This document shows, piece by piece, positions 23,859-29,389 of a DNA stretch of 64,000 bases. The DNA comes from Rhodococcus qingshengii. Its GTDB lineage: Bacteria; Actinomycetota; Actinomycetes; Mycobacteriales; Mycobacteriaceae. Every line of letters begins with the position of its first letter. Position 1 is the first letter of the stretch. Both the position numbers and the translations under genes were made by a program. The stretch covers positions 361,626 through 425,625 of the forward strand of contig NZ_JAJNCL010000002.1 in the NCBI RefSeq assembly GCF_021025955.1. The letters are read 5' to 3'. The notes beneath the pieces are model-generated. The model did not search any database, was not told the DNA's origin, and worked only from the letters and a program-made list of their open reading frames with translations.

Positions 23859-24272
23859 TCAGGGAGACTTCGCGGCAGTAGTGAGTTCAGCGATCAAGGC
23901 TTGGACTCGTCGCTCGATTTCGTCGCGGATCGGGCGGACCGCATCGATGCCCTGGCCAGCGGGATCGTCGAGAACCCAGTCTCGGTAGCTCTTGCCGGGA
24001 AAAATCGGGCACGTGTCACCGCATCCCATCGTGATCACGACATCGGAATCCTGGACAGCGTCGACGGTGAGAATCTTCGGAGACTGAGCGGAGATGTCGA
24101 TTCCGAGCTCTGCCATCGCTGAGACCGCGGCGGAATTGACGATCTCGGCGGGTGCGGACCCAGCGGAACGGACCTCGATGGTGTCGCCCGCGAGATGACT
24201 CAGGAAACCGGCAGCCATTTGCGATCGGCCGGCATTGTGGACGCAGACGAACAACACCGATGGTTTGCTCAT
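23859..24272 (-). CDS. arsC: Arsenate reductase, low-MW phosphatase fold
   Basis: 137 residues with the LMW protein-tyrosine-phosphatase fold. The N-terminal CVHNAGRSQ is the C-x5-R active-site loop, ITMGCGDTCPIFPG has the further cysteines, and DDPAGQ holds the acid Asp. It reduces As(V) to As(III). In actinobacteria enzymes of this type use mycothiol/mycoredoxin or thioredoxin, and sequence alone does not settle which. Its start overlaps the acr3 stop by 4 bp, and it closes the arsR-acr3-arsC operon. Confidence 0.93.
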   Translation of the reverse strand: MSKPSVLFVCVHNAGRSQMAAGFLSHLAGDTIEVRSAGSAPAEIVNSAAVSAMAELGIDISAQSPKILTVDAVQDSDVVITMGCGDTCPIFPGKSYRDWVLDDPAGQGIDAVRPIRDEIERRVQALIAELTTAAKSP

Positions 24273-25372
24273 GACCTCGCTCTTTCTCGACTGGGTGAAA
24301 CCTCTTTGACGGCAAAGCGTTTACGCAGAGCAAGGGAGACGTACACCAGACCGATCAGCACCGGCACCTCGATCAACGGGCCGACAACACCAGCCAAGGC
24401 TTGCCCCGAGGTGGCGCCGTAAGTAGCGATGGCTACGGCGATCGCGAGTTCGAAGTTGTTACCCGCAGCGGTGAACGCCAGGGTCGTGGTGCGTTCGTAG
24501 CCCAATCCGATTGCGGCACCGAGGATGTAGCCACCGCCCCACATGAGTGCGAAGTACACCAGCAGCGGCAACGCGATCCGGACGACATCCCATGGCCGGG
24601 AGGTGATCTGTTCGCCCTGCATCGAGAAGAGCACGACGATGGTGAACAACAGACCGTAGAGCGCCCAGGGGCTGATCGTGGGGATGAACGTGTTGTCGTA
24701 CCAGTCGCGGCCTTTGGCGCGTTCGCCGAAGAAACGGGACAAAAAACCTGCCAGCAGCGGGATACCGAGGAAGATCAGGACCGATTTCGCGATCTGCCAA
24801 GGCGAGGTGTCGATGGTGGTCTGTTCGAGGCCGAGCCACCCGGGCAGGACCGAGAGGTAGAACCAACCGAGCACCGCGAACATGATCACCTGGAACACCG
24901 AGTTGATGGCGACCAGCACCGCGGCGGCTTCGCGATCTCCGCAGGCCAGGTCGTTCCAGATGATCACCATCGCGATGCAGCGAGCGAGACCGACGATGAT
25001 CAAACCGGTTCGGTATTCCGGCAGGTCAGACAGAAACAACCAGGCGAGGGCGAACATCAACGCCGGGCCGAGAACCCAGTTCAGGAACAGCGAGCCCGCG
25101 AGGAGTTTCTTGTCCCCGGTGACCGTGTCGAGGCGGTCGTAGCGGACCTTCGCCAAGACCGGGTACATCATGATCAGCAGGCCGAGGGCGATCGGCAGTG
25201 AGATGCCGTCGATCTGCACCTTCTCCAGGGCAGTGTTCACACCGGGGATCCAGCGCCCGACCAGCAGGCCGACGACCATGGCCACGCCGATCCAGACCGC
25301 CAGATAGCGGTCGAGGGTGGAGAGTTTTCCGACGACTGCGCGGTGTTCGGTAGTCGCAGCGGTGTTGCTCAT
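24269..25372 (-). CDS. acr3: ACR3-family arsenite efflux permease
   Basis: 367 residues with ten hydrophobic segments, giving the bile-acid/arsenite transporter fold (LDRYLAVWIGVAMVVGLLVGRWIPG opening, LARCIAMVIIWNDLACGDREAAAVLVAINS with the conserved membrane cysteine). It expels arsenite from the cytoplasm using the proton motive force. ATG at 25372 overlaps the arsR stop by 4 bp; the longer frame to 25390 lies inside arsR. It is transcribed between arsR and arsC. Confidence 0.95.
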   Translation of the reverse strand: MSNTAATTEHRAVVGKLSTLDRYLAVWIGVAMVVGLLVGRWIPGVNTALEKVQIDGISLPIALGLLIMMYPVLAKVRYDRLDTVTGDKKLLAGSLFLNWVLGPALMFALAWLFLSDLPEYRTGLIIVGLARCIAMVIIWNDLACGDREAAAVLVAINSVFQVIMFAVLGWFYLSVLPGWLGLEQTTIDTSPWQIAKSVLIFLGIPLLAGFLSRFFGERAKGRDWYDNTFIPTISPWALYGLLFTIVVLFSMQGEQITSRPWDVVRIALPLLVYFALMWGGGYILGAAIGLGYERTTTLAFTAAGNNFELAIAVAIATYGATSGQALAGVVGPLIEVPVLIGLVYVSLALRKRFAVKEVSPSRERARS

Positions 25373-25755
25373 GCGGTGACCTCTGCGCACGCGTCCACTG
25401 CGGTCACGATCGAGCCTTCAACCAGGAGCACAGCCGAGAGCTGCTGCAGTGCAGCAGGAATCACCCAGTAGTACACCCAGGTGCCGCGACGTTCACAGTC
25501 GAGCAAACCGGCCTGTCGCAGCACCTTGAGATGATGCGAAATCGTCGGCTGGGACAGGTCGAACGTATCCGAGATGTCGCAGACGCAGGCCTCCCCACCC
25601 TCATGGCTGGCCACCAAGCTCAGCAGGCGGAGGCGAACCGGATCGCCGAGGGCCTTGAACATCCGAGACAGGTCACCGGCCCAATCCTCGGTCAACGGTT
25701 CACGTACGAGCGGGGAGCAGCAAGCGCCGGTCTCCACCACAACTTGATTCGACAT
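25369..25755 (-). CDS. arsR: ArsR-family arsenite-responsive repressor
   Basis: 128 residues. The winged helix contains CDISDTFDLSQPTISHHLKVLRQAGLL. Cysteines at 12, 13 (GACCSP) and 57/59 (EACVCD) match the pattern of the Corynebacterium glutamicum-type As(III) site, which joins an N-terminal Cys pair to a Cys near the DNA-binding helix. It is the first gene of the arsR-acr3-arsC operon, with a TCAATATTGA palindrome immediately upstream of its start codon. Confidence 0.93.
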   Translation of the reverse strand: MSNQVVVETGACCSPLVREPLTEDWAGDLSRMFKALGDPVRLRLLSLVASHEGGEACVCDISDTFDLSQPTISHHLKVLRQAGLLDCERRGTWVYYWVIPAALQQLSAVLLVEGSIVTAVDACAEVTA

Positions 25756-25758
25756 ACT

Positions 25759-25768
25759 TCAATATTGA
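25759..25768. promoter_or_regulatory. ArsR-type operator upstream of arsR
   Basis: TCAATATTGA is a perfect 10-bp palindrome 3 bp upstream of the arsR ATG and matches the A/T-rich TCAA-TTGA pattern of ArsR/SmtB sites. The 68-bp gap to the ArsR-GNAT gene shows no other clear structure. Confidence 0.6.
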
Positions 25769-25823
25769 CAGAACTCGAATCAACGCGCAATCGAGCGGCA
25801 CGCAGCCACCCGATCCAGGTCTC

Positions 25824-26708
25824 TCAATCGGAGACGGTCACCGCACGTCGTTCGAGCAGAACGGTGTCACGCCAGACACCGTCGAGCTGGGCAATCTTTT
25901 CGCGGAGACCGACAGTTCTGAACCCGGCCGAATGATGAAGTGAGATGGAGGCGCGATTCTCGGGAAATATCGACGTCTGCAGTGTCCAGAGATCGTCGAC
26001 ATCGGCGGCCATGACTTGCTTGCGCAACAACGCTTTTCCGACGCCCCGACCACGCATTCCGTCCGCGACGTACACGGAGTTTTCCGCCACCCCGCGGTAG
26101 CAGTCACGCTCGGAAACCGGACTCAACGCAGCCCAACCGACAACAACACCCTCGATAGTCGCCACCCACCGGTGCTGCGACAGCCACCGCTCCTGGAGAT
26201 GCTCACGCGCGGGAACCTCGGTGGCAAAGGTGGCGTTTCGAGTGTCGATGCCCTCGCCGTAAATCCGTAGAACCGCATCCCAGTCGTCGTCGGCCATCGC
26301 TCGGACAGTGACATCGTCCGGCAGATCACTCGGGCAGCACGGGCGCGGCGCAAGCACCCCCATCACCACGTCCGCCGCCTGCGGTAGAGCGACGCAGCAC
26401 GTCGGATTCATCGCGACGACTGTGCTTGTCCCTTCCTTACGCATGGTCACAAAACCCATATCGGCGAGCTTGCGCAGGTGATGTGACACCGTCGGCTGCC
26501 CGATCCCCAACGACCCCGCGAGCGCACCGACGGTAATTCCGCTGGACGCGCTCGCCACCCGGTGAAGCAGTCGAACACGCATCGGTTCGGCAAGGCACGC
26601 GAACCACTGCGCGTAGGTATCCGCATCGCCCTGCGCGAGCACGGAAGAAACAACCCGGTCCTGGCCCGAATCACCGACGCGCACCGTCGGAGTCTGCAGC
26701 GATGCCAT
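25824..26708 (-). CDS. ArsR-GNAT fusion (ArsR regulator with ArsN1-like acetyltransferase)
   Basis: 294 residues with two modules. Residues ~30-105 are an ArsR winged helix (LAGSLGIGQPTVSHHLRKLADMGFV). Residues ~132-290 are a GNAT acetyltransferase of the phosphinothricin/ArsN1 type (VRAMADDDWDAVLRIYGEGI, NATFATEVPA, acetyl-CoA loop ADGMRGRGVGKALL, NRASISLHHSAGF). The linker has two Cys pairs, C104-C105 and C124-C125, a possible metalloid site. ArsN1 enzymes acetylate the organoarsenical antibiotic arsinothricin and its analogue phosphinothricin, so the protein may both sense and detoxify. It lies upstream of arsR and diverges from the ArsO-like gene across a repeat-rich 98-bp gap. Confidence 0.88.
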   Translation of the reverse strand: MASLQTPTVRVGDSGQDRVVSSVLAQGDADTYAQWFACLAEPMRVRLLHRVASASSGITVGALAGSLGIGQPTVSHHLRKLADMGFVTMRKEGTSTVVAMNPTCCVALPQAADVVMGVLAPRPCCPSDLPDDVTVRAMADDDWDAVLRIYGEGIDTRNATFATEVPAREHLQERWLSQHRWVATIEGVVVGWAALSPVSERDCYRGVAENSVYVADGMRGRGVGKALLRKQVMAADVDDLWTLQTSIFPENRASISLHHSAGFRTVGLREKIAQLDGVWRDTVLLERRAVTVSD

Positions 26709-26719
26709 CCGTCCACTAT

Positions 26720-26792
26720 ATCGACAGCTGTCAATGGTTGCTTACATTGATGGTTGTCGATACTGTTTGACAGTAGATCGATAAGTGTCGAT
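26720..26792. promoter_or_regulatory. Cluster of ArsR-like palindromes between the ArsR-GNAT and ArsO-like genes
   Basis: Within the 98-bp divergent gap, ATCGACAGCTGTCAAT (26720-26735) is an 8+8 inverted repeat with one mismatch. TACTG-TTTGA-CAGTA (26761-26775) is a perfect 5-bp inverted repeat. ATCGAT..TGTCGAT half-sites recur at 26777-26792. The repeated TCGACA/TGTCGA/TTGACA half-sites fit binding by one or both nearby ArsR-type proteins to control both directions. Confidence 0.65.
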
Positions 26793-26806
26793 GAAAGGAA
26801 CGGACA

Positions 26807-28168
26807 ATGGACCCCCTACCCGTCGTCGTGATCGGGGCCGGCCCGATCGGCCTGGCGGCCGCAGCAGAACTGCGCGAACGTGGACTCACCCCGCTCGTAC
26901 TCGAGCGCGGAGCCGCCGCCGGTACTGCGATTTCCGAGTGGAATCACGTCCGACTGTTCTCCCGGTGGTCCGAACTCGTCTCCCCCGCCGCGCAGCGACT
27001 CCTCGAACAGAATGGATGGAGCTCTCCCGACGCCGAGACGTACCCGACCGGCCGGCAATGGCGCGACCTCTACCTCGGACCACTCGCCTCAGCACTCGGC
27101 GACGCCGTCCAGTTCGACACCGAAGTGATCGGCGTAGCCCGGCGCGGGCGTGACCGTGTCGTCGACGCCGGTCGCGATACCGAACCCCTCTCGATTCATC
27201 TGCGCCGCCGTGACGGAACCGAGGACCGCGTCTTCGCCCAGGCGGTTGTCGACGCATCCGGCACCTGGGGTACTCCCAACCCGCTCGGCGGTGAAGGACT
27301 ACCCGCCCTCGGCGAAAGCGCTGCTGAATCTGCGATCAGGTACCGGGTTCCGGATCTCGACGATCCGGCGGTGCGCGCACAGTTCGCCGGAAAACACACG
27401 GTCATCGCAGGGAGCGGCCACTCTGCGCTGACGGCGATCGTTGCCCTGTCGGGGTTGGCGGAGCAGGCTCCGAGCACACGCATCACCTGGGCGGTCCGCC
27501 GAGGAAACGTCGGCTCAGCGTTCGGCGGCGGCGAAGCTGACGAACTGCCCGCTCGCGGCGCCCTGGGACTACGCGCGAAGAAGGCCGTCGATGACGGATT
27601 GCTGAGAGTGGTCACCGGTTTCCGCACAGCTGAGGTGTCGACAACCCCCTCGGGACAACTTCTACTTGCCTCCGATGCCGGTAAGCGCATCGAGAACGTG
27701 GACAACGTCGTCACGCTGACCGGGTTCCGCCCGGATCTGTCCTGGCTTTCGGAAATCCGACTCGGCCTCGACCCGGTGTTGCAGGCACCGGTGGAGCTGG
27801 CTCCGCTGATCGACCCGAACATCCACTCGTGCGGCACGGTGTATCCACATGGCGCAAAAGAGCTTCGCCATCCGGAGCCGGGCGTGTACCTGGCAGGAAT
27901 GAAAAGCTACGGCCGCGCGCCCACCTTCCTGGCGATGACCGGCTACGAGCAGGTTCGCAGCATCGCCGCCGAACTCGCCGGTGACCACGACGCCGCAGCC
28001 CGGGTCGAGTTGATCCTTCCGGAGACCGGAGTCTGCGGCGGTGCAGGTATTTTCGACGAAGCTGACACGGACGAAGGTGACACCGGGGAAGCCGAAGGCG
28101 GATGCTGCGGCGCACCCGCTCCGGAACTGATCACGCTGTCCGCGCCGTCTGGCAGCACCTGCGGATAG
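26807..28168 (+). CDS. ArsO-like FAD-dependent monooxygenase/oxidoreductase
   Basis: 453 residues. The N-terminal FAD motif IGAGPIGLAAAAELRERG is followed by a second dinucleotide motif IAGSGHSALTAI near residue 205, giving a flavin-containing monooxygenase-like layout. The closest known context is ArsO, a flavin monooxygenase of actinobacterial arsenic operons. The last ~45 residues are acidic and Cys-rich (CGG, CC, final C), an unusual tail that could bind arsenic or transfer electrons. It is divergent from the ArsR-GNAT fusion and 9 bp before an MFS gene. The reaction is unknown; oxidation of an organic arsenical is one possibility. Confidence 0.75.
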   Translation: MDPLPVVVIGAGPIGLAAAAELRERGLTPLVLERGAAAGTAISEWNHVRLFSRWSELVSPAAQRLLEQNGWSSPDAETYPTGRQWRDLYLGPLASALGDAVQFDTEVIGVARRGRDRVVDAGRDTEPLSIHLRRRDGTEDRVFAQAVVDASGTWGTPNPLGGEGLPALGESAAESAIRYRVPDLDDPAVRAQFAGKHTVIAGSGHSALTAIVALSGLAEQAPSTRITWAVRRGNVGSAFGGGEADELPARGALGLRAKKAVDDGLLRVVTGFRTAEVSTTPSGQLLLASDAGKRIENVDNVVTLTGFRPDLSWLSEIRLGLDPVLQAPVELAPLIDPNIHSCGTVYPHGAKELRHPEPGVYLAGMKSYGRAPTFLAMTGYEQVRSIAAELAGDHDAAARVELILPETGVCGGAGIFDEADTDEGDTGEAEGGCCGAPAPELITLSAPSGSTCG

Positions 28169-28177
28169 AAGCAGTCC

Positions 28178-29389
28178 ATGACAACCATCGAGGATCCGCC
28201 GCAGCCGTCCGACGGCCTCAATTCTTCGGGGCTGCGGCGGGTTCTGGTGGCGTTGTGCCTGACCGAGATCACGAGCTGGGGAATCCTGTACTACGCGTTT
28301 CCTGTTGTGTCGGTGTCGATCTCCCGCGACACCGGATGGTCGAACTCGGTGGTAGTGGCGGCTTTCTCGGTCAGCCAACTCGTTGCCGCCGTTATCGGAA
28401 TCCCGGTCGGCCGTGTGCTCGATCGGTGCGGACCGAGGTGGGTCATGACGGCAGGGTCGACGCTCGCCGTCGCAGCTCTGATCATCATCGCAACCGCCCG
28501 CACTCTCCCGCTTTTCTTCGCCGGTTGGATGATCGCCGGAGTTGCAATGGGCGCAGTGCTGTATCCACCGGCTTTTGCCGCGTTAACCCGTTGGTACGGG
28601 GACGATTACGTGAAGGCTTTGACGATCCTCACACTGGCCGCCGGTTTGGCCAGCACGGTATTTGCCCCCATAGCCGCCGCGCTGGTCGAACAATTCGATT
28701 GGCGCACCACGTACCTGACCCTGGCCATTGCTTTGGCAGTGATCACAGTTCCGGCACACGCGTGGAGACTGAGGGGCGGATGGCCCAACCCTGCCCACCC
28801 CGTCCACACCAAGGCCGGTGACCACCGGCGAACACGCCGTAGCCCCGAATTTCTCACGCTCACCGTCGCTCTCGCTGCAGGTGCCTTTGCAGCGTCTGCC
28901 GGGGCATTCAACCTGGTACCCCTCCTGATCGAACAAGGTTTCAGTCCTGGCCTGGCGGCGCTCACCCTGGGTTTGGGCGGCGCCGGCCAGGTGGTCGGCC
29001 GACTTTTCTATCTTCCCCTCGCTGCACAGACCAGTGTGAGAGTTCGCACCGCGTCCGTCATCGCCGTCACCGGGCTGAGCACCGCATGGCTGGGGCTCGC
29101 AAGTTCGGTTGCGGTGTTGATCGGTATCGCGATCGGTGCTGGACTGGTCCGAGGCATCTTCACCCTCATTCAGGCCACCGCGGTCACCGACCGGTGGGGC
29201 GCCGAACACTACGGGCACCTCAACGGAATCATGTTTGCGCGGATCGTCATCGTCATGGCGCTTGCTCCGTGGGCCGGGACCGTTCTCTCCACCTGGGCAG
29301 GAAGTTACGCCCAGGCTTACCTCGTTCTCGGGGCCACAGCAGTGTTCGGCGCCGTTCTCAGTGCCGCGAGGACGACCTCCGGCACATGA
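28178..29389 (+). CDS. MFS transporter of the arsenic region
   Basis: 403 residues and about 12 membrane segments (ALCLTEITSWGILYYAFPVVSVSIS opening; GIPVGRVLDRCGPRWVM is the loop between helices 2 and 3). It begins 9 bp after the ArsO-like gene, so the two are co-transcribed. The role is probably export of the oxidised or acetylated arsenical, or of a related compound (inference). The neighbouring glyceraldehyde-3-phosphate dehydrogenase that marks ArsJ systems is absent, so this is not an ArsJ pair. Its stop lies in the loop of a small hairpin. Confidence 0.8.
   Translation: MTTIEDPPQPSDGLNSSGLRRVLVALCLTEITSWGILYYAFPVVSVSISRDTGWSNSVVVAAFSVSQLVAAVIGIPVGRVLDRCGPRWVMTAGSTLAVAALIIIATARTLPLFFAGWMIAGVAMGAVLYPPAFAALTRWYGDDYVKALTILTLAAGLASTVFAPIAAALVEQFDWRTTYLTLAIALAVITVPAHAWRLRGGWPNPAHPVHTKAGDHRRTRRSPEFLTLTVALAAGAFAASAGAFNLVPLLIEQGFSPGLAALTLGLGGAGQVVGRLFYLPLAAQTSVRVRTASVIAVTGLSTAWLGLASSVAVLIGIAIGAGLVRGIFTLIQATAVTDRWGAEHYGHLNGIMFARIVIVMALAPWAGTVLSTWAGSYAQAYLVLGATAVFGAVLSAARTTSGT

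Follow-up and report, generated by a model that had tools for sequence, protein, structure and literature searches.

This analysis concerns an arsenic resistance locus in a stretch of 64,000 nucleotides from Rhodococcus qingshengii (hereafter the window), the host genome being 6.48 Mb in 48 contigs. Here an ArsR-type repressor fused to a GNAT acetyltransferase is encoded divergently from a flavoprotein gene and an MFS carrier gene. We propose, as a reading to which we give an even chance, that these genes form a self-regulated organoarsenical resistance module, wherein the fusion would both control the system and take part in detoxification, while the divergent pair would oxidise and export. 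The kinds of parts involved are already known. We found no description of an ArsR-acetyltransferase fusion of the ArsN1 type in the literature searched; subscription papers lay mostly outside that literature, and a description may exist in print.

The fusion protein and its operator-like repeats

The fusion gene lies at 25824..26708 on the minus strand. It encodes an ArsR/SmtB domain (residues ~30-100) and an ArsN1a-like GNAT domain (~134-288; 135-287 by the NCBIfam match range); the linker joining them contains two vicinal cysteine pairs, C104-C105 and C124-C125. Across a divergent gap of 98 bases (26709-26806), the plus strand carries the gene for a FAD/NAD(P)-type flavoprotein of 453 amino acids (26807..28168), a predicted ArsV-like oxidase of trivalent organoarsenicals, and then that for an ArsK-like MFS carrier (28178..29389; MFS_1 in Pfam). 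With only 9 bases between them, these two genes are predicted to form one operon. The initial annotation had named these three genes and the adjacent arsR, acr3 and arsC; all six are present, and their families are supported by NCBIfam and Pfam models, with two of the labels corrected.

The fusion is a single open frame with no internal stop, and fused relatives occur in many other genomes, which together rule out a sequencing or frameshift artefact as its origin. Its ArsR half passes the ArsR/SmtB metalloregulator model NF033788 (61.1 bits, cut-off 55). The nearest named relatives come from Rhodococcus sp. IEGM 1409 (98%) and R. erythropolis NBRC 15567 (93%), and the named sources of all listed relatives are actinobacterial, mainly Rhodococcus and Nocardia. 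In databases these proteins are called ArsR-family regulators, GNAT or helix-turn-helix GNAT proteins, or N-acyltransferases. Of the 120 best-matching relatives listed, 118 carry a CC-x18-CC linker motif, with the pairs 20 residues apart; one of the two exceptions, P0104, has neither pair whole, and the other is discussed below. A scan of genome contigs with the fusion protein gave 19 loci, four of them fusion orthologues and 15 outside Rhodococcus. The module occurs in Rhodococcus, Nocardia and Pseudonocardia, on chromosomes as well as plasmids.

In alignment, C104 falls on the SmtB His at chain position 106, which we take to be part of the alpha-5 metal site of SmtB, and the linker Cys pairs are candidate ligands for a trivalent metalloid. 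Purifying selection appears to act on both domains and on the linker: eight pairwise tests against Rhodococcus relatives gave dN/dS values (NG86) from 0 to 0.22, with dS saturated (>1) in several. The predicted structure of the fusion (mean pLDDT 73) is of low quality in the interdomain region and near the termini, with values below 50 at residues 1-21, 113-123, 201-203, 268-271 and 288-294.

A pattern scan of the window revealed, in the divergent gap, three copies of an operator-like repeat, ATYGA-N6-TCRAT, at 26720..26735 (ATCGACAGCTGTCAAT), 26746..26761 (ATTGATGGTTGTCGAT) and 26777..26792 (ATCGATAAGTGTCGAT), the last of these just upstream of the flavoprotein start. They are the only copies in the window, where 0.15 would be expected, and none of 100 shuffles gave three. 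Across the divergent gaps of 34 loci whose fusion has both Cys pairs, the copy number is three in 27, four in one, two in two and one in three, and L103 is the sole gap without any. The commonest spacing is 26 bases (28 intervals). From these patterns, the module looks to be self-regulated through the predicted operators. Three one-mismatch copies (25748, 25764 and 25813) also lie in the 81 bases between fusion and arsR (25748..25828), against a background of 17 matches with at most one mismatch in the whole window (7.2 expected). Because such copies precede arsR, the neighbouring operon may use a shared or related operator, and cross-talk is possible. A promoter scan gave one weak match against 0.4 expected, from which no promoter was assigned, and Rfam and tRNA scans of the window gave no match.

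Some relatives of the fusion are split into separate arsR and GNAT genes. In L036, a plasmid of Agreia sp. COWG from acid mine drainage, such an unfused pair faces the flavoprotein gene across a gap with three repeat copies, and so the operator and layout are common to a split form. The idea that the fusion is a simple join of a split arsR-GNAT pair of the kind seen in Streptomyces, Arthrobacter and Agreia is unsupported. In L034-L037, four of the five split loci fetched, the adjacent arsR was matched better by the window arsR than by the ArsR half of the fusion. This comparison considers only the best match per place; in the fifth locus, L038, both genes were hit by the fusion. In the GNAT tree, the split GNATs and one further GNAT share a group of their own (fork 97/92).

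Co-occurrence and probable loss of cysteine pairs and flavoprotein

We scored neighbouring genes uniformly in 39 stretches of ~12-17 kb around matches in other genomes, together with annotated plasmid loci. For full-length fusions with both Cys pairs, the flavoprotein gene is found divergently within 400 bp in 28/28 genome loci (25 genomes, window included). Six plasmid fusion loci bring the pairing to 34/34, or to 33 distinct loci once L029 and L089, which represent a single R. opacus locus, are counted together. The count excludes L099, L113 and L114, where only the GNAT half is matched, as well as the split plasmid loci L034-L038. For full-length fusions without both pairs, a flavoprotein gene was found in 0/9 fetched stretches, four of these fusions coming from genomes that hold a two-pair fusion with its flavoprotein elsewhere. 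In the loci sampled, the pairing of two-pair fusion and flavoprotein is thus strict.

The genus sample comprised 28 genomes, of which 25 gave a fusion match of some kind and 20 have a fusion with both pairs, adjoined by the flavoprotein gene in every case (20/20). The remaining eight, together with G049 of the same family, gave no flavoprotein match (0/9 at E <= 1e-40) with a query that did find matches in other genomes; one genome, G414, is 75% complete. The 20/20 versus 0/8 split would have a probability of 1 in 3,108,105 if the genomes were independent, which they are not.

We see from the GNAT tree that paralogues without the Cys pairs form a clade nested inside the clade that has them (fork 97/90, nearby forks weaker, midpoint root). 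Because of this nesting, the cysteines were probably lost, making their absence secondary. Five of the 93 rows were dropped from this tree: L131 and L123 (copies, of a renamed row or of the window genome's own paralogue), L105 (a two-pair fusion with a poor GNAT match), L157 (the L102 sequence) and L132. Loss is also seen outside the paralogue clade. In the orthologous fusion of L098 (G399), the second Cys of each pair has been replaced (C to Y and C to S), L104 has lost the first Cys of each, and neither genome gave a flavoprotein match (E <= 1e-40). Of all the evidence, these parallel losses point most strongly to Cys pairs that sense the compound on which the flavoprotein acts. The stretches of L098 and L104 retain one repeat copy each, and none was found in the paralogue-clade stretches (L106-L112 and L008).

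In the paralogues without Cys pairs, the ArsR half is far more diverged (37.2% identity) than the GNAT domain (66.0%). One such protein is encoded in the window's own genome, on contig C22 (L008:9851-10678); this second ArsR-GNAT fusion is ~50% identical, has no Cys pair, and adjoins one large reading frame that is peptide-synthetase-like and another that is FAD-oxidoreductase-like in sequence, the size remark applying to the former. In L110 and L111 (G416 and G410) the paralogue instead stands divergently beside arsR-acr3-arsC, with no flavoprotein found in either genome, and may still be tied to arsenic. In L099 (G413), the matched GNAT half lies beside arsR-acr3-arsC and arsI, again with no flavoprotein found in the genome.

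Predicted activities and neighbouring genes

The flavoprotein had been labelled ArsO-like in the initial annotation, a label that the data reject. It scores 41.3 bits with the ArsO model (NF040505, cut-off 425), and the single ArsO included in the alignment lacks counterparts of its conserved cysteines 342, 410, 433 and 434. Moreover, a Streptomyces sp. FR-008 plasmid carries an annotated ArsO and the flavoprotein-MFS pair in one locus. Like ArsO, the window protein is a flavoprotein of the FAD/NAD(P)-binding type encoded among ars genes. Among 27 aligned members of the flavoprotein family, drawn from Actinomycetota, Bacillota, Bacteroidota and Pseudomonadota, C342, C410 and C434 are invariant (27/27) and C433 is found in 23. 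The family is widespread and often ars-linked. A fold search retrieved the FAD/NAD(P) fold shared by YpdA, FMO, thioredoxin reductase and N-hydroxylases, which leaves function unsettled.

A closer relationship is seen to P0325, an FAD-dependent oxidoreductase of Paracoccus sp. SY, with 48% identity over 452 columns. In the accessible part of PMC10080717, arsV is listed under this strain as methylarsenite-oxidising and arsW as methylarsenate-extruding. In Alphaproteobacteria, the order arsR, flavoprotein, MFS is found in 5/6 loci read. In one of these genera, Ensifer, the MFS protein passes the ArsK model NF033733 (513 bits, cut-off 400); the window carrier, for which ArsK is also the best curated model, reaches 158.5 bits. 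The flavoprotein is present in 28/396 actinobacterial genomes at E <= 1e-90. In 29 actinobacterial loci besides the window's own, read in stretches of mostly ~1.5 kb each side, an ArsR gene or fusion is nearby in 25/29 and arsI, of the C-As lyase type, stands beside the flavoprotein in 4/29. The organoarsenical role suggested in the initial annotation is thus plausible, as supported by the Paracoccus identity and the arsI neighbours. A further flavoprotein of ~355 residues follows the MFS gene in L031, L032, L080, L083 (in part), L095 and L097; this one is ArsO-related, under the cut-off (251.6 against 425 for the L032 copy).

For the GNAT domain, the best model is ArsN1 family A (NF040503), and the phosphinothricin acetyltransferase model gives 52.5 bits (cut-off 300). 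Sequence and fold comparisons with the PDB both match the domain to phosphinothricin acetyltransferases. Its clade in the tree (100/99, 68 rows) also takes in the other fused domains, the split Streptomyces, Arthrobacter and Agreia GNATs, and further GNATs from Bacteroidota, Bacillota and an ars plasmid of Cronobacter. Related GNAT genes lie within ars clusters or next to them in Arthrobacter, Paenarthrobacter, Agreia and Streptomyces, as well as in Lysinibacillus and two Bacteroidota (L022, L014 and L023), and in Paenibacillus a GNAT named ArsN1 family A stands beside the flavoprotein.

According to the accessible part of PMC6465285, Pseudomonas putida ArsN1 contacts arsinothricin through Ile31, Phe33, Arg75, Ala76, Arg77, Ala124 and Val158. 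We mapped these positions indirectly, via PDB 9igk, which places Phe161 at Phe33, Arg201 at Arg77 and Ala159 at Ile31. Counterparts of Tyr80 and Tyr89 are also kept by this indirect mapping, while Ala124 and Val158 could not be safely mapped. On the question of whether the domain lacks the substrate-binding residues of ArsN1, which the initial annotation had put forward, the indirect mapping shows the Phe33, Arg77, Tyr80 and Tyr89 counterparts retained and Arg75 replaced by Ser. The domain is near ArsN1 family A; the proposed ArsN1 identity itself is weakened by a score below the cut-off, a position in a sister clade and the Ser at Arg75. From these comparisons an arsinothricin-type substrate is plausible, and a non-arsenical amine is possible.

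Beside the module, 68 bases downstream of the fusion gene and on the same strand, lies a tight minus-strand arsR-acr3-arsC operon. It encodes an ArsR with an ArsR/SmtB domain and cysteines 12, 13, 57, 59, 87 and 123 (25369..25755), the arsenite efflux carrier Acr3 (24269..25390; TIGR00832, 454 bits, cut-off 283) and ArsC, an arsenate reductase of the low-molecular-weight phosphatase fold (23859..24272; LMWPc in Pfam, cysteines 10, 84 and 88) for which none of the NCBIfam arsC models passes its cut-off. The initial annotation had taken the fusion and its partners to be separate from this inorganic arsenic operon, and our data agree. The module has operator-like repeats of its own, acr3 was found within the fetched stretch in 14/28 genome loci and not in the other 14, and two plasmid loci have no ars operon nearby.

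Proposed mechanism, alternatives and significance

If the locus is indeed a self-regulated organoarsenical resistance module, it would work as follows. Without arsenic, a dimer of the fusion would sit on the three repeats, silencing its own gene and the flavoprotein-MFS operon. A trivalent arsenical would bind C104-C105 and/or C124-C125 and release the fusion from DNA. With NAD(P)H, FAD and its three conserved cysteines, the flavoprotein would then convert the trivalent organoarsenical to a less toxic pentavalent form, as reported for ArsV with methylarsenite, and the MFS carrier would export either the oxidation product or the trivalent form. The fusion, by then abundant, would acetylate arsinothricin-like amino-acid arsenicals at their alpha-amino group, and arsR-acr3-arsC would deal with inorganic arsenic. 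These roles are assigned by analogy, oxidation after ArsV, export after ArsK or ArsW and acetylation after ArsN1, and the substrate of the acetyltransferase is the least certain element. A bolder version, which we offer tentatively and think rather doubtful, is that sensor and inactivator are one polypeptide. The repressor released by a natural organoarsenical would itself acetylate that compound, acetyl-CoA or substrate in the GNAT domain would help to set DNA binding, and the target would be an amino-acid arsenical, as yet undescribed, that actinomycetes encounter in soil.

Several observations weigh against the organoarsenical proposal. The GNAT domain scores 143.9 bits with the ArsN1 family A model (145.5 in the genome search), under the cut-off of 170, and the five members in the tree that reach this value group apart (98/86), to the exclusion of the clade with the window's domain. 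By the indirect mapping, the substrate-gating Arg75 position is Ser199; among the passing members it is Arg in three and Ser in two (L143 and L144). Only 3/15 loci outside Rhodococcus (L014, L022 and L023) show an ars gene or the flavoprotein with the queries used, and a GNAT gene lies near the flavoprotein in only 10/29 actinobacterial loci (5 fused, 5 separate). The acetyltransferase may have a substrate unrelated to arsenic, as paralogues without the Cys pairs keep the GNAT domain better. On the sensing side, the fusion P0008, 78% identical, has the first Cys pair only. We infer that P0325 is the published ArsV from strain and family, and in the sixth alphaproteobacterial locus, from Roseomonas, the regulator before the flavoprotein is a PadR rather than an ArsR. 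Finally, the MFS gene was found by tblastn in only 16/28 genome loci, and it is missing in four close relatives (L076-L079), where treZ directly follows the flavoprotein gene. The carrier is therefore an accessory part. In these four, the segment 28186-29403 is cleanly missing between flanks that are ~88-97% identical; the window strain has either kept the gene or regained it.

Some of these points would fit a system of sensing and oxidation only, in which the repressor senses As(III) or methylarsenite and controls an ArsV-like oxidase and an exporter. The fused acetyltransferase would then be merely co-regulated, its substrate being a toxin free of arsenic, for instance phosphinothricin or a different amino-acid antibiotic. 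This is a possibility we would place well short of even. It draws on the likeness of the GNAT domain to phosphinothricin acetyltransferases in the PDB, on its score below the ArsN1a cut-off and its retention where the Cys pairs are gone, on the 12/15 loci outside Rhodococcus without an ars neighbour seen by the queries used, and on the many flavoprotein genes without a nearby GNAT gene. However, the domain scores far lower with the phosphinothricin acetyltransferase model than with that of ArsN1a (52.5 against 143.9 bits), and its relatives lie in or beside ars clusters from Arthrobacter to the Bacteroidota, including the ArsN1-named neighbour of the flavoprotein in Paenibacillus.

It is unlikely, in our estimation, that the module serves inorganic arsenic or antimony alone, as a second layer of arsR-acr3-arsC in which As(III) or Sb(III) is oxidised by the flavoprotein and arsenite leaves through the ArsK-like carrier, organic arsenicals not being the target. 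Half of the 28 genome-locus stretches do contain acr3, the accessible part of PMC11719878 lists an Achromobacter arsV among Sb(III)-induced genes, and a review (PMC12607644, in its accessible part) states that an arsN gives arsenate resistance dependent on arsC or arsD. Yet acr3 was not seen in the other half, arsI adjoins the flavoprotein in 4/29 loci, and it is hard to see what an acetyltransferase would do with inorganic arsenic. Least probable by far is a GNAT half that works as a regulatory or toxin-like acetyltransferase on protein or RNA instead of a small molecule. According to the accessible part of PMC2701414, GNAT genes paired with helix-turn-helix regulators occur in toxin-antitoxin-like modules, but the same text favours antibiotic resistance for such pairs. 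Scores of the GNAT half are also much higher with small-molecule acetyltransferases of the ArsN1 and phosphinothricin types, and its split forms are located in ars clusters.

Compared with described systems, the proposed organoarsenical module combines familiar features in a different way. It resembles P. putida ArsN1 (as far as PMC6465285 could be accessed) in its GNAT fold, best model and retained Phe33, Arg77, Tyr80 and Tyr89 counterparts, and differs in being fused to a repressor as well as in the score, clade and Arg75 position already described. Methylarsenite oxidation by ArsV is NADPH-dependent. As in ArsV-ArsW, a flavoprotein gene precedes an MFS gene, behind an arsR in relatives, and the flavoproteins share the 48% identity noted for Paracoccus sp. 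SY; unlike ArsV-ArsW, the window repressor is divergent and acetyltransferase-fused, and orthology to the published proteins is itself presumptive. The carrier recalls ArsK, an MFS protein for arsenite efflux, in its best model and its place behind the flavoprotein in Ensifer, but falls far under the ArsK cut-off. The closest parallel in design is ArsR^M of Brevundimonas sp. M20, described in the accessible part of PMC10190100, which likewise joins a repressor and an arsenical-modifying enzyme in one protein. There, the enzyme is an arsenite methyltransferase rather than an acetyltransferase, and the gene is in a methionine operon. The 'ArsR-ArsN' of the same source denotes a gene order and not an earlier fusion, and the accessible parts of PMC12607644 and PMC2701414 describe no such fusion.

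The discovery of ArsN1 gave a reason for acetyltransferases in ars operons. Two questions that follow are what induces such genes and which natural organoarsenicals favour their retention in actinomycetes. A repressor-acetyltransferase fusion would tie signal to substrate, such that the inducing compound can point to the compound destroyed. The matched loss of Cys pairs and flavoprotein provides natural variants for asking which half senses what, and CC-x18-CC together with ATYGA-N6-TCRAT offers a signature for finding further modules where annotation describes the fusion simply as a GNAT protein or an ArsR-family regulator.

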